A stretch of 64,000 bases of DNA from an uncultured Hyphomonadaceae bacterium (lineage in GTDB: Bacteria; Pseudomonadota; Alphaproteobacteria; Caulobacterales; Maricaulaceae): positions 1 to 64,000 of the forward strand of contig CAJXPX010000009.1 in assembly GCA_913058335.1 (NCBI GenBank), given 5' to 3'. The notes beneath the pieces are model-generated. The model was given only the letters and a program-made list of their open reading frames with translations, ran no database searches and was not told the origin of the DNA. The translations under genes were made by a program, and so were the position numbers. The first letter of the stretch is position 1. Each line of letters begins with the position of its first letter. Below are positions 6,138 to 36,822 of this stretch, one piece after another.

Positions 6138-7442
6138 CTATTCTGATTTCATTTTTCGAATATCCTGCCATTTGGTCAGGCGGCTTTTAATCTCTTGCTC
6201 ATCTCCGTCGCCCTTAGGCTTGTAAAGATTGATACGTGATATTTCATCGGGAAAATAATCTTGGCCAGAAAAACCTTCCGGTGTGTCAGGATCATATTGA
6301 TATCCGTCGCCATATCCCAAATCTTTCATCAGCGACGTCGGCGCATTTAGTATATGAGCGGGCGGTGAAAGAGACCCCGTCTCATTGGCCAGTTTTTGCG
6401 CGGCCTTAAAAGCCGAATATACCGCATTGGATTTTGGCGCAGAGGCAAGGTGCACAACGGTTTGGGCTAAAGCCAACTCCCCTTCCGGCGTGCCGAGAAG
6501 TTGATAAGCGGACAGCGACGCCATCGCAGCGGGCAGCGCCGAGGCATCGGCCAGCCCAATATCCTCACTCGCCATTCTTACGAGGCGCCTGGCAATATAA
6601 ATTGGGTCTTCCCCGCCGGAAAGCATTCGCGCCAACCAATAAAGCGCGGCATCTGGGTCAGATCCCCGTACGGATTTGTGCAGGGCTGAGATCAGGTTGT
6701 AATGTTGCTCTCCGCCTTTGTCATAATGGGCGCGGCGTTTTTGCAAAATTTGGGCAACACCTCTTCCATCAAATTCGGTTTGACCGGAGTAATCAAACAG
6801 GATTTCAGCAAGACTCAAGGCGTAGCGTCCATCTCCATCCGCCATATCCTTCAAAGCCTGTCGTCCGTCACCCGTTACGGGCAAGGGTTTGCCTAAATGC
6901 AATTCCGCCCGTTTCAACAAACCGTCAATCGCAAGTTCGTCAAGACGTTTAAGAACATAAACCTGCGCCCTGGAAAGCAAGGCGCTATTAAGTTCAAAAC
7001 TCGGGTTTTCAGTCGTTGCGCCTATAAGTGTAATTGTACCGTTTTCCACGTAAGGCAGAAACCCATCCTGCTGGGCCTTATTAAAACGGTGAATTTCATC
7101 AACAAAGAGGAGCGTACCTCTCCCTGTGCTTCGGCGAGCTTTTGCCGCTTCAAATACTTTACGCAAATCCGCAACACCGGAAAAAACAGCAGAAAGCTGA
7201 ACAAATTCCATATCGGCATGATCGGCAATAATGCGCGCCAGTGTTGTTTTACCGACCCCAGGCGGCCCCCATAATATAAGAGAGCTAAGCCGGCCGCTGG
7301 CCAGCATACGGGCGAGCGGCGCGTCTTTAGCTAACAGGTGATCTTGCCCTATGACTTCAGACAAAGTTGTCGGACGTAATTGATCCGCGAGCGGGCGAGG
7401 CGCTGCTTTTTCTAATCCTGCCGATGAAAATAAGTCGGAAAT
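6138..7442 (-). CDS. rarA: Replication-associated recombination protein RarA (MgsA), apparent ATT start
   Basis: An AAA+ ATPase related to clamp loaders that acts at stalled replication forks. It carries Walker A GPPGVGKTT, Walker B LLFVDEIHRFNKAQQD, sensor region IGATTENPSFELN, and the C-terminal SDPDAALYWLARML..GEDP oligomerisation segment. The ORF tool starts at a TTG (7364) inside the conserved region. Upstream, the same frame is open back to the degP stop and reads ISDLFSSAGLEKAAPRPLADQLRPTT, the expected RarA N-terminus, but it contains no ATG, GTG or TTG. The only plausible initiator giving the full N-terminus is ATT at 7440-7442, three bases after the degP TAA. A GTGAG sequence lies upstream. 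The enzyme call is firm; the start is inference. Confidence 0.9.
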   Translation of the reverse strand: MSDLFSSAGLEKAAPRPLADQLRPTTLSEVIGQDHLLAKDAPLARMLASGRLSSLILWGPPGVGKTTLARIIADHADMEFVQLSAVFSGVADLRKVFEAAKARRSTGRGTLLFVDEIHRFNKAQQDGFLPYVENGTITLIGATTENPSFELNSALLSRAQVYVLKRLDELAIDGLLKRAELHLGKPLPVTGDGRQALKDMADGDGRYALSLAEILFDYSGQTEFDGRGVAQILQKRRAHYDKGGEQHYNLISALHKSVRGSDPDAALYWLARMLSGGEDPIYIARRLVRMASEDIGLADASALPAAMASLSAYQLLGTPEGELALAQTVVHLASAPKSNAVYSAFKAAQKLANETGSLSPPAHILNAPTSLMKDLGYGDGYQYDPDTPEGFSGQDYFPDEISRINLYKPKGDGDEQEIKSRLTKWQDIRKMKSE

Positions 7443-7445
7443 GAC

Positions 7446-8879
7446 TTATTGCTCACGCGGAAGGTATCGCGTCGGAAGAACACCAATCCGGCCATTGCGA
7501 TCAATGGAGAGTTTCCAGCCTTCGTCGGACTCTACCGTCTCCAGTAATGATTCGAGTTGGCGGGTGGAGGTAATATCCTCGTCATTCAATCCAATCAAAA
7601 AATCTCCGGGCCGCAATCGGTTATAATTAGCTGCACTGCCACGCTCGATCTTCAGAACCATAACGCCAGAGATAAAGGGATCAAAACCAAGTTCTTCCCC
7701 TAAGGCAGGGCTCATATTCACAAGGGTCGCTCCGTCAAATGGATTCATACCTTCAATTTTACGTTCGTCTCTTTCTGGCGTTTCCTGCGGAATATCAGTT
7801 TCGACATTCACCGTTCGCTCTTTACCTTCCCGGAAATACCGAATGGCGACCTCTTGGCCTTTACGCAATGTCGCAAGTTTAAAGCGAAGTCCGCTGTCAT
7901 CGTTAATCGGGGTGCCGTCCACAGAAAGAATAACGTCGCCTTTTTCAAGTCCAACCTTATCAGCGGGCCCCTTTGGTAATATTTCGTTTATGACCGCCCC
8001 TTTGGATCGGTCCAACCCCAAAGCAGAGGCCATAGTCGCGTCCACAGCATTTGTTCGTGCGCCAATCCAAGGCCGCACAATTCGGCCTTCAGAAATTGCG
8101 CTATCTACAGCGCGGCTCACCAGTTCTGAAGGAATAGCGAATCCGATCCCATTGGACCCCCCTGAACGTGAGAAAATTGCCGTATTCACACCTATAAGCT
8201 CACCGGAAAGGTCAACCAAAGCCCCGCCTGAATTTCCCGGGTTTACCGCAGCGTCGGTTTGAATAAAGGAAGATAAGTCAGTTACATTTGTACGCCCTAA
8301 AGCCGAGACAATGCCGCTCGTTACAGTTTGCCCGACACCAAAGGGATTTCCGATGGCTAAAACAATATCTCCAATTTCAAGGTCATCACTTTGACTTTGA
8401 ATAGCCAGGGCGGGAAGTCTCTCTCCATTCGTTTCAATTTTTAGAACAGCGACATCAATCTCTTCATCTTGCGCGACGATCTCGGCCGGAAACTCCCGAC
8501 GGTCATTCAAAACAACTTTCAATTCGTCAGCGCCTTTGACCACATGAGCATTTGTGACGATAATCCCATTAGACCGTACAATTACGCCTGATCCGAGAGA
8601 GCTCTCAACTCTTTCCTGGGGCGCGCGCTGCATCCCAAACATCCGTTCAAAAAAATCAGCCCCGCTACGGGCTCTGACAGTCCGCGAAGTGTAAACATTA
8701 ACAACAGCCGGTGCCGTTTGCTTGACCACAGGGGCGTAAGAAAGTTGCACCTGCATTTGTGAGTCCGGAACAATTCGTTCCGGCGGGCCGTCCAGGAACT
8801 GAGCCTGCGCCGCGCCGCTAAATAATCCGGGTGCTACGACGCAAGCACTTGCGAGAAGAGAGAGAAATGTTTTTTTCAT
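7446..8879 (-). CDS. Periplasmic serine protease, DegP/HtrA (Do) family
   Basis: A 477-residue trypsin-like protease/chaperone. A signal peptide (MKKTFLSLLASACVV..AQAQ) sends it to the periplasm. The catalytic triad is visible as His in VTNAHVVKGAD, Asp in DEEIDVAVLKI and Ser in NPGNSGGALVD. Two PDZ domains follow (about residues 280-375 and 385-477). I start at ATG 8879 because it opens the signal peptide; the ORF runs 12 codons further. It heads the run degP-rarA-crcB-rluC-ATP12-kefB. Whether it is DegP, DegQ or MucD by name cannot be decided here. Confidence 0.93.
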   Translation of the reverse strand: MKKTFLSLLASACVVAPGLFSGAAQAQFLDGPPERIVPDSQMQVQLSYAPVVKQTAPAVVNVYTSRTVRARSGADFFERMFGMQRAPQERVESSLGSGVIVRSNGIIVTNAHVVKGADELKVVLNDRREFPAEIVAQDEEIDVAVLKIETNGERLPALAIQSQSDDLEIGDIVLAIGNPFGVGQTVTSGIVSALGRTNVTDLSSFIQTDAAVNPGNSGGALVDLSGELIGVNTAIFSRSGGSNGIGFAIPSELVSRAVDSAISEGRIVRPWIGARTNAVDATMASALGLDRSKGAVINEILPKGPADKVGLEKGDVILSVDGTPINDDSGLRFKLATLRKGQEVAIRYFREGKERTVNVETDIPQETPERDERKIEGMNPFDGATLVNMSPALGEELGFDPFISGVMVLKIERGSAANYNRLRPGDFLIGLNDEDITSTRQLESLLETVESDEGWKLSIDRNGRIGVLPTRYLPREQ

Positions 8880-32961: not shown

Positions 32962-33972
32962 ATGACCACTCGCCTCGCCATTAACGGATTTGGACGCATT
33001 GGCCGCAATGTGCTGCGCGCCCTGTATGAGCAAGGCCGGGACGATCTTCAAGTCGTCGCGATTAACGATTTATGGTCGACAGATAATTTGGCGCATCTGC
33101 TGAAATATGATTCCGTTCATGGACGGTTCCCCGGTACGATTAAAGCCACGGAAAACAGTCTGGATATCGGCCAAGGCCTAATACAAGTCACCTCCGTACG
33201 GAATCTGGAAGACCAGAATTGGGCGGACAATCAAGTTGATATTGTCTTGGAATGTACAGGCATCTTTACGGCTCGTGAGGCGGCAGCAAAGCATCTCGAC
33301 GCCGGCGCGAAACGTGTTCTAATTTCTGCGCCCGGAGACAATGCAGATAAAACTATTGTTTATGGCGTAAATCATGACAAATTGACCAAAGATGACCACG
33401 TTGTATCAAACGGTTCCTGCACAACAAATGCCCTCGCCCCTCTGGCAAAAGTTTTAAATGATGCGTTTGGAATTGACTCAGGATTTATGACGACCGTTCA
33501 TTCCTATACAGGCGACCAGCCCACGCTAGATACAATCCACCGCAAGGATTTCAACCGAGGAAGGGCCGCCGCGCTTTCTATGATTCCGACATCTACTGGT
33601 GCTGCCAAAGCCATCGGTCTGGTGATGCCGGAACTAGAAGGAAAGCTCGACGGGAAAGCTATCCGCGTTCCGACTCCTAATGTTTCGGTTGTTGATTTAG
33701 TCGTAAATACAAAAAACGCCGCCACACTCGAAAATGTCAACGCCGCCTTTGCCAAGGCCGCAAACGGGGAGCTGAAAGGTGTTTTGCAAATTATCGAAGA
33801 TAAAACCGTCTCTATCGACTTAAATCACGACCCACACTCCTCAAGCTTTATGACAGGAGAAACCGTTATCATAAATAACAAGATGATTCGTGTCCTCAGC
33901 TGGTATGATAATGAATGGGGCTTCTCGAACCGTATGCTGGACACAGCTGCTGAAATAGCAAAATTTTTATAA
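32962..33972 (+). CDS. gap: Glyceraldehyde-3-phosphate dehydrogenase, type I
   Basis: A 336-residue glycolytic/gluconeogenic enzyme. The NAD site is INGFGRIGRN and the active-site region is SNGSCTTNALAP. The catalytic Cys is present, but the usual SNASCTTNCLAP is altered at two positions (Ala to Gly, and the second Cys to Ala). HSYTGDQPTLDT, SMIPTSTGAAKAIGLV and VPTPNVSVVDL are all normal. Asp in VVAINDLW is compatible with NAD preference. RBS AAAGGATAA precedes the start. A PEPC-like gene follows in the same frame after 84 bases. Confidence 0.95.
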   Translation: MTTRLAINGFGRIGRNVLRALYEQGRDDLQVVAINDLWSTDNLAHLLKYDSVHGRFPGTIKATENSLDIGQGLIQVTSVRNLEDQNWADNQVDIVLECTGIFTAREAAAKHLDAGAKRVLISAPGDNADKTIVYGVNHDKLTKDDHVVSNGSCTTNALAPLAKVLNDAFGIDSGFMTTVHSYTGDQPTLDTIHRKDFNRGRAAALSMIPTSTGAAKAIGLVMPELEGKLDGKAIRVPTPNVSVVDLVVNTKNAATLENVNAAFAKAANGELKGVLQIIEDKTVSIDLNHDPHSSSFMTGETVIINNKMIRVLSWYDNEWGFSNRMLDTAAEIAKFL

Positions 33973-34056
33973 GGTATTAAGAACATTACACGCCCAATTA
34001 AATCTGACGAACTTCTGACGCGGCTGCAAGCCCGGCTTGCTGAGCACAAAAAAGAC

Positions 34057-36822
34057 ATGAATGAGGATCCGCAAGCTAACGCTGTAAAAGTCCTCGCTTA
34101 CGACATTTCCAAAGATGTGGAAGAGCGTAAAATCGCTTTTCGGCATATCGAAGAACTTGTCAAACAGCTCTCAGACAGAGGCGCAATAGAACGTATCCGG
34201 CGCCTGCGCCGCCGTTCAGGCCTGGATCAAATAGAAACCTTGGAAGCGCGCATCACGGATATTGCCAAAGCGCAAGCGGCCAAAGGATGGGACAGTTACA
34301 AGGTTTGGGCAGAAAAGCCGGGCTTGGGAATCGTTCTGACAGCTCATCCTACCTTCTCGCTTTCCCGCGATATACGCAATTGTCTTGGGGCTCTCGCCTC
34401 GAAGAAAGATGGTGAGTTTGAAGATGAGATCGAAGCCTTAAAATCTTACCCTTATCTTCCAAAGCGGGCTCCAACGCTGATTGAAGAACATGAAGACACC
34501 CAAACCACTCTGGAGCGCATTCAAAGATCATTGAACCGGATCAATCGAAAAGTCCTTGATATCGCCCGAGAAAACTTCCCCGAAAGCTGGTCATATCTGA
34601 CCCCTCATTTGGCGGACGCTTATAGCTGGGTCGGATATGATATTGATGGCCGCACAGATATTTCGTGGGGGGATGCCCTTCGTTTAAGGCTGTCAGAAAA
34701 GCATACACAGCTAGGTCGTTATTTGAAAACAGCGCAAGACCTTCAATCCAAAGGCAAACTCGAAGCCAAAAGTGAAGCCGCGCTGGATACCCTCATCGAC
34801 AAATTATCAGATGCCCAGACGAGCGCAAAACGTGATCTGGCACTTTTTGAGAAAGATATTACTCAACCCGAAAATCTGGTTGCAGCGGCGAATAACCTTA
34901 CTCGCAGCTCGACCCGGCGGTTTACCAATCTTGATCTGGCGATTGAACTAATCGACAAAGCCATTTCCGGTGCAAATGAAGAATTGGCCTCCAGCCTAAT
35001 CATTTTACGTTCCCAAATGGTTGCTTTTGGTTTGGGAACGGCCCGGATTCATTTCCGACTGAATGCGCGTCACGTTATTTCGGCGATCCGCCCCATTTTC
35101 GGAATGGATCAGCAATCCTCCGACAATCGGACTTTGCTGAATAAAGCCACAAAACTAACAAAATCTGTTAAAGCGCAACCCGTTAATTTCGCCTCTCTTG
35201 CCCTTGAGAAAAGTACTGCACATGAGAAAATGATCCTCTCTGCGCAAATGCATAAATATATCGATGACAAGACGCCTATCCGGTTATTGATTGCGGAAAC
35301 CGAAGACAGCCTTGTGCCATTGGGCGTTTTATATCTGGCGCGTCTTTACGGCTTGGAAAACCATTTAGACATTTCTCCACTGTTTGAGACAGCGGACGCC
35401 CTCAATAATGGCGGACGTATCATTGGCAAAATGCTGAATAATCCGGTGTACAAGGATTACGTTAAATCCCGCGGGGTCTTTGCCATTCAAACCGGTTTTT
35501 CGGATGCCGGGCGGTTCATGGGGCAAATTCCGGCCACCCTCGCGATTGAGCGGCTTCACTCTCATTTTGCGCATCAAATGGCCAAGAATGAAATGAAGGA
35601 CGTTACCGCACTTGTCTTTAACACCCACGGCGAAGGTCTGGGACGGGGCGGACATCCCGGCAAAATTCACGAGCGCGTCGACTACGCCATGAGCCCTTGG
35701 GCAATACGTCAGTTTGAAAAACGTGACGTCCATCTTTGCCATGAAGTGAGTTTTCAAGGCGGGGACGGATTTCTCTGGTTTCAAACCCCAACACTTTCTG
35801 ACGCCACAGCGCAGTCTCTTCTGGCCGCGCGATACGCTGATCGAAGCGCCGCCGAAGAGGATAGCTTCTATACGGAAAATGATTTTTCTTGGGACGTATT
35901 CCGAACTATCGGGTCAGAACAGGATAGTCTGTATCGGGATCCGAATTACATAACGATTCTCGGTGGGTTTGGGCAGAACCTCCTTATCCCAACAGGCTCA
36001 CGGGCGGTGAAAAGGGCAGCCCCGGGCAGCGGGGCAGATATGTTTAATCCGCGCCAGTTGCGAGCTATTCCGCATAACGCCATTTTGCAGCAATTCGGAG
36101 CCCCCGCAAATATCATCTTTGGGATTGGCCGAGCCGCCGCAATTGATAGCGAAAAATTTGAAAGCCTGTTGGAAACCTCTGCGAGAGCGAGGTCTATTTT
36201 CGGGCTTGCAGCGATTTCTATGAGCCGGACGCAGCTCTCCGCTCTAACAGCTTATGGCCGTTTGTTTGATCCGGGATTTTGGATTAGCCGCGCGCTCTCT
36301 GGAAATGAACCCATCTTGGCCGAACGCTCATTGATCGTAGCCGAAACGCTGAGCCAGTCTGCCTGGCGCTCACAGATTATGGATTTGGCCAACCGCCTTC
36401 GTATGGATCAATTTAATGCCCTCGCCGCATTCAATAAAAGCGATTTGGCCTGTACCGATTGTGACCCTGAAACGCTTAAAATCCTCCACGCACTCCGGCT
36501 TGCCGTGGTAATGAAGATGATGATTATCGCGACAGATCTGCCGGCCATCGGGGATGAAAATACATCACAGATGAACGTCTTGCAAAGGCTCCAGACCTTT
36601 CAAATCAACTCGATTCTGGAAGACCTTCGTCAACGCTATCCTGAAAAACGTGATGCCTTGAGCTGGACCGAAGATTTGGTCGAAAAATCAGGTGTTAAAT
36701 TGGGCGGCTCTGGTGGATACCCACATATCTCGGAAACAATTATTCGCCCACTTGAAAGGGCGTCAGAACTGGTGCGGCAAATCACCATTGCCATTACGCA
36801 CCATTATGACGCTTATGGATAG
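34057..36822 (+). CDS. Divergent phosphoenolpyruvate carboxylase-like protein
   Basis: A 921-residue protein of PEP carboxylase shape. The first motif is VLTAHPTFSLSRDIR, where canonical enzymes have TAHPTE. GFSDAGRFMG stands where GYSDSxKDxG is expected. FNTHGEGLGRGGHP replaces FHGRGGxVGRGGGP, so a catalytic His and Arg appear replaced. LRAIPHNAILQQ is close to LRAIPW. The C-terminus is HHYDAYG, not the usual NTG ending. It may be an altered or inactive PEPC. Upstream the frame reads ITRPIKSDELLTRLQARLAEHKKD without ATG, GTG or TTG, so the true start may lie earlier. It follows gap and could share its transcript. Confidence 0.8.
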   Translation: MNEDPQANAVKVLAYDISKDVEERKIAFRHIEELVKQLSDRGAIERIRRLRRRSGLDQIETLEARITDIAKAQAAKGWDSYKVWAEKPGLGIVLTAHPTFSLSRDIRNCLGALASKKDGEFEDEIEALKSYPYLPKRAPTLIEEHEDTQTTLERIQRSLNRINRKVLDIARENFPESWSYLTPHLADAYSWVGYDIDGRTDISWGDALRLRLSEKHTQLGRYLKTAQDLQSKGKLEAKSEAALDTLIDKLSDAQTSAKRDLALFEKDITQPENLVAAANNLTRSSTRRFTNLDLAIELIDKAISGANEELASSLIILRSQMVAFGLGTARIHFRLNARHVISAIRPIFGMDQQSSDNRTLLNKATKLTKSVKAQPVNFASLALEKSTAHEKMILSAQMHKYIDDKTPIRLLIAETEDSLVPLGVLYLARLYGLENHLDISPLFETADALNNGGRIIGKMLNNPVYKDYVKSRGVFAIQTGFSDAGRFMGQIPATLAIERLHSHFAHQMAKNEMKDVTALVFNTHGEGLGRGGHPGKIHERVDYAMSPWAIRQFEKRDVHLCHEVSFQGGDGFLWFQTPTLSDATAQSLLAARYADRSAAEEDSFYTENDFSWDVFRTIGSEQDSLYRDPNYITILGGFGQNLLIPTGSRAVKRAAPGSGADMFNPRQLRAIPHNAILQQFGAPANIIFGIGRAAAIDSEKFESLLETSARARSIFGLAAISMSRTQLSALTAYGRLFDPGFWISRALSGNEPILAERSLIVAETLSQSAWRSQIMDLANRLRMDQFNALAAFNKSDLACTDCDPETLKILHALRLAVVMKMMIIATDLPAIGDENTSQMNVLQRLQTFQINSILEDLRQRYPEKRDALSWTEDLVEKSGVKLGGSGGYPHISETIIRPLERASELVRQITIAITHHYDAYG

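Follow-up and report, generated by a model that had tools for sequence, protein, structure and literature searches.

We find that the rarA gene of genome G000 in all likelihood starts at an AUU codon, the ATT at positions 7442-7440 on the minus strand of the window, and that initiation there would give a full-length RarA of 434 amino acids; we put the probability of this reading at about 0.86. The window is the whole stretch of DNA analysed here, 64,000 nucleotides long (G000:C9:1-64000). The most likely situation is that rarA starts at AUU or AUC both in G000 and in its closest relative among the genomes compared, G017. In what follows, AUH denotes the codons AUU, AUC and AUA, and ATG, GTG and TTG are called canonical. 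The position of the start, its conservation, the codon constraint around it and its ancestral state are all well supported by sequence comparison, and we infer that AUU is the codon used for rarA in the G000 cell.

The rarA coding sequence, read from ATT, occupies 6138-7442 on the minus strand (434 amino acids and a stop). Its product is the RarA/MgsA AAA+ ATPase; it matches the Pfam models MgsA_C (2e-64) and AAA, both above the Pfam cut-offs, and it aligns over its full length with the E. coli RarA structure 3pvs (3e-123). Upstream on the same strand, at 7446-8879, lies degP/htrA, which codes for a Do-family serine endopeptidase and whose product scores above the model cut-off of TIGR02037. 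The two genes have a common frame: on the minus strand degP ends in CGT GAG CAA TAA (stop at 7448-7446), followed by GTC (7445-7443), the ATT and then TCC GAC TTA TTT, and from the GTC onward, in the degP frame, this reads V-ISDLFSSAGLEKAAPRPLADQLRPTT-L. The TAA, 3 nt before ATT, closes the rarA frame one codon upstream of the proposed start, and no ATG, GTG or TTG occurs before codon 27 counted from ATT; the initial annotation, which had described the frame as open to the degP TAA and free of such codons up to a TTG at 7364, was exact on this point.

The genome itself is that of a marine alphaproteobacterium (3.06 Mb, 99.5% complete, 24 contigs). Its genus belongs to the family Robiginitomaculaceae, and the same GTDB genus also holds a genome whose rarA region matches that of Algimonas arctica (L010 = L063). 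G017 is an independent genome in 3 contigs whose RarA is 85% identical in amino acids to that of G000, with all other relatives at or below 72%. At the aligned site it reads TGA TCG GAG GAT TAC ACA ATC TCA GAC CTA TTT, where the ATC aligns with the ATT of G000, the degP stop TGA lies six codons upstream with no canonical codon in between, and the first canonical codon downstream is codon 18. Both members of the sister pair carry an AUH codon where the homologues have their start. Besides G017, we compared about 113 non-redundant relatives from the Maricaulales, Rhodobacterales, Hyphomicrobiales and Sphingomonadales and some Gammaproteobacteria. In the ATT column, or no more than a few codons from it, the best start candidate among these is ATG in 91, GTG in 11 and TTG in 11 (a few rows being contig ends or starts slightly off the column); at one relative locus, L095, the automatic rule found no canonical codon in its vicinity. 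The initial annotation had proposed the ATT start, stating that many alphaproteobacterial RarA proteins begin with MSDLF, and had named a canonical start further inside the gene in relatives as the finding that would speak against it. The statement on MSDLF was right, nearly all relatives begin at the column itself or within a few codons of it, and the proposal is borne out by this column, by the ATC of G017 and by the codon constraint described below. Because the start at this column is canonical in nearly all other relatives, the ancestral rarA start is reconstructed as canonical, and among the genomes seen the change to AUH appears confined to G000 and G017.

A gene caller restricted to ATG, GTG and TTG would place the start of rarA at the TTG at 7364-7362 (minus strand, codon 27), the first canonical codon of the frame, and would report a protein of 408 amino acids without the LADxLRP segment. 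G017 likewise has a TTG in this column, and still we regard a start here as improbable. Codons 2-26, which it would leave untranslated, evolve as coding sequence: between G000 and G017, 15 of the changed codons are synonymous and 5 non-synonymous (pS 0.90, pN 0.19), and third positions account for 19 of 29 nucleotide differences (P = 4e-4 for an expectation of one third), compared with pS 0.74 and pN 0.10 over the remainder of the gene. Ahead of any canonical codon, conservation covers 27 codons, with 21 identical amino acids and 16 synonymous changes, and protein similarity between the two genomes begins at ATT/ATC, with no protein-level alignment upstream of it. As the initial annotation had warned, the conserved PLADxLRP segment comes before the TTG; in the part that would be lost, the alignment to E. 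coli RarA begins at residue 14 of the latter, and the relatives begin upstream of this part. In the relatives the TTG column is mostly occupied by ATT, CTG, ATC, CTC and other leucine or isoleucine codons (TTG in 7 of 51, ATG in 2), and no good Shine-Dalgarno sequence precedes the codon in G000. This constraint, together with the conserved N-terminus, is most simply read as full-length translation from ATT/ATC.

Other explanations were weighed as well. A single T-to-G change would give MSDLF back and almost all other relatives do carry ATG, GTG or TTG, so one may ask, as the initial annotation did, whether a sequencing or assembly error has turned a real ATG into ATT. The independent genome G017, however, has ATC rather than ATG at the same codon, and the need for two independent errors at one codon makes this account very unlikely. 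Equally hard to credit is the idea that rarA has no start of its own and is made as a DegP-RarA fusion by readthrough of the degP stop: the two genes are in one frame in both G000 and G017, but neither the stop (TAA versus TGA) nor the linker (1 versus 5 codons) is conserved between them, the relation of the two frames varies among other relatives (frames 0, 1 and 2), and the fusion product would presumably carry an exported protease and a DNA-repair ATPase in one chain. In E. coli RarA is dispensable, and the Shine-Dalgarno sequence of the G000 gene is weak, as one would expect if rarA were decaying in this pair of species, its start lost and translation from AUU negligible; we hold this to be highly improbable in view of an open frame of 434 codons under strong constraint throughout (pN 0.10 against pS 0.74) and of the strong Shine-Dalgarno sequence ahead of the ATC in G017. 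The GTC at 7445-7443 was also considered as a start of the kind used by Streptomyces sigR, which its codon type would permit, and was rejected on finding ACA at that place in G017.

With the start at ATT/ATC preferred over these accounts, we can ask how common such starts are in the two species. As IF3 autoregulation would lead one to expect, infC, taken as a control, starts at ATC preceded by AGGAG in both G000 (L140, C1, about 51.5 kb) and G017 (L144), and therefore IF3-type starts work in these species; in genomes G109 and G110 the infC start is ATA. A scan for coding-like ortholog pairs of at least 60% identity covered 545 kb of G000 and 1.70 Mb of G017. Of 196 pairs, 156 have a canonical start in common close to where conservation sets in, and most of the 40 flagged pairs proved unremarkable on inspection: their N-termini have diverged, or a canonical codon falls just outside the range of the rule. 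Only three good AUH cases emerged, namely infC (ATC/ATC), rarA (ATT/ATC) and a PEP-carboxylase gene, and conservation ahead of the first canonical codon is by far clearest in rarA; as rarA was the starting point, these counts do not form an unbiased rate. The scan also turned up a phosphoribosyltransferase-like gene (G000 C1, about 280.4 kb; G017 C1) with ATG in G000 and ATC at the aligned codon of G017, whose start in G017 is ambiguous because that genome has an ATG eight codons upstream.

The third case, a PEP-carboxylase-like gene (PF00311), lies in the same window at 33985-36822 on the plus strand, where its ATT (33985-33987) follows the stop (33970-33972) of a GAPDH gene (32962-33972) by 12 nt. 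From the preceding stop as far as codon 25, with ATT as codon 1, G000 has no canonical codon, and the gene apparently starts at that ATT; in G017 the corresponding position has ATA, then GTG. Several genomes of the genus and family have GGAGG and then ATC at a distance of about 6-8 nt (Shine-Dalgarno energies of -8 to -10.7 kcal/mol), among them L280 with TAGGAGGCTACT-ATC and L277 with TAGGAGGCGATC-ATC, and the first canonical codon comes no earlier than codon 191 in L276, codon 58 in L274 and codon 37 in L277. Elsewhere ATG, GTG or TTG stands at or beside the column (L268, L269, L270, L278, L279 and L281), codon 2 is TTG in L271 and L272, and where the sequence reads ATC AAA CGN ATG that ATG could serve instead, though about 16 nt from the Shine-Dalgarno sequence. 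The AUC start of this gene is apparently conserved more deeply than the AUH start of rarA, and it makes the use of AUH codons in the family more credible.

As to how the rarA start arose, we propose that in the common ancestor of G000 and G017 an ATG, GTG or TTG was replaced by an AUH codon, which would have become the AUU and AUC of the present lineages. Synonymous sites in rarA are near saturation between the two, and the AUH state appears to have outlasted a long divergence while swapping within its own class. Since the state has persisted at such a distance, it may reflect selection for a weak start, a hint that is suggestive only and comes from one gene in two lineages. The AUU would be decoded by the ordinary initiator fMet-tRNA to give fMet-SDLF. 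An altered initiator tRNA was considered as an explanation and set aside, the initiator-type tRNA seen in a piece of G000 having a normal CAU anticodon (a pattern search for initiator tRNAs gave one irrelevant match only), and so was an unusual IF3, as the IF3 proteins of G000 and G017 share no obvious oddity.

The two species differ in what surrounds the codon. In G017 a strong GGAGG stands ahead of the start (TCGGAGG, 8 nt, ATC; -9.5 kcal/mol), the 3' end of its 16S rRNA carries CACCTCCTTTC, and the GGAGG, at about 8 nt, would offset the weak AUC. In G000 the Shine-Dalgarno sequence reaches only -2.0 to -2.4 kcal/mol. The start of G000 rarA also sits in a perfect 8-bp hairpin, AATAAGTC-ATTTCC-GACTTATT (7429-7450, minus strand; -7.1 kcal/mol), with the degP stop in its 5' arm and ATT as the first three bases of the loop; a stem at least this long occurs in 13 of 3000 shuffles and at 26 of 3000 random window positions, and its role is speculative. 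A ribosome finishing degP would open the hairpin and would then stand beside the AUU, so most initiation on rarA in G000 would probably come from ribosomes that have just terminated on degP. Such coupling requires that the gap be very short (PMC10666635), and reinitiation that lacks a Shine-Dalgarno sequence is IF3-sensitive (PMC2268962). The neighbourhood of degP and rarA is widespread in Alphaproteobacteria (loci L032-L138), and in several more distant relatives the two genes overlap by 4 nt (gap -4), which suggests an old coupling between them. Coupling of rarA translation to degP termination is plausible in G000, where the gap is 3 nt. A device made of the hairpin and the short gap would be specific to that genome, because G017 has no hairpin at its rarA start, a gap of 15 nt and a strong GGAGG.

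What would such a start do? In an E. coli reporter, ATT is about 0.3% as efficient as ATG (Hecht 2017, as cited in PMC10666635), and given this figure and the weak Shine-Dalgarno sequence the yield of rarA in G000 may be very low. The start is likely to be sensitive to IF3, judging by the identity of its codon, and IF3 would destabilise initiation at AUU and AUC, as in infC and pcnB, and so hold RarA synthesis low. Both of those genes use AUU starts, which IF3 disfavours and which keep yield low (PMC9410913).

Genes with AUH or comparable starts are a kind already known from infC, pcnB, sigR, cvfC1 and ccpN, and rarA adds to them. It resembles infC (AUU, AUC or AUA, autoregulated) in having a start that IF3 disfavours, but infC encodes IF3 itself, which creates feedback, and it retains a strong Shine-Dalgarno sequence. 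We know of no role of RarA in translation initiation. Closer in kind is E. coli pcnB, a single chromosomal gene outside the translation machinery that is limited by its AUU; it has another function, and its start was established by experiment (Binns and Masters 2002, as cited in PMC9410913), whereas that of rarA comes from comparison. Streptomyces sigR, whose GTC start is repressed by IF3 (PMC5472188), is likewise an ordinary gene with a non-canonical start invisible to automatic annotation, although GTC is not an AUH codon, the effect of IF3 was shown by experiment and the start is conserved across Streptomyces. In S. aureus, conserved AUU and AUA starts reduce yield, those of cvfC1 (AUU) and ccpN (AUA), and they are accompanied by a strong Shine-Dalgarno sequence like that of rarA in G017 and unlike the weak one of G000, whose start adjoins an upstream stop (PMC13009471). 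In the open-access literature we found nothing relevant on non-AUG starts of rarA or on an AUC start of PEP carboxylase.

Outside infC, AUU, AUC and AUA starts are to our knowledge known for few bacterial genes, and the interest of rarA is that such starts are rarely documented and that a second apparent case lies within the same window. Gene callers restricted to ATG, GTG and TTG overlook them and report truncated proteins. One broader idea, which we offer as doubtful, is that in the Robiginitomaculaceae IF3 sensitivity through an AUH start extends from infC to a few further genes, PEP carboxylase (AUC preceded by GGAGG in several genera, AUU in G000) and, within a single sub-lineage, rarA; the supply of IF3 would then tune replication repair jointly with the entry of carbon into the TCA cycle. 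With rarA and PEP carboxylase together, one can test in an alphaproteobacterial lineage how far IF3-controlled initiation extends.
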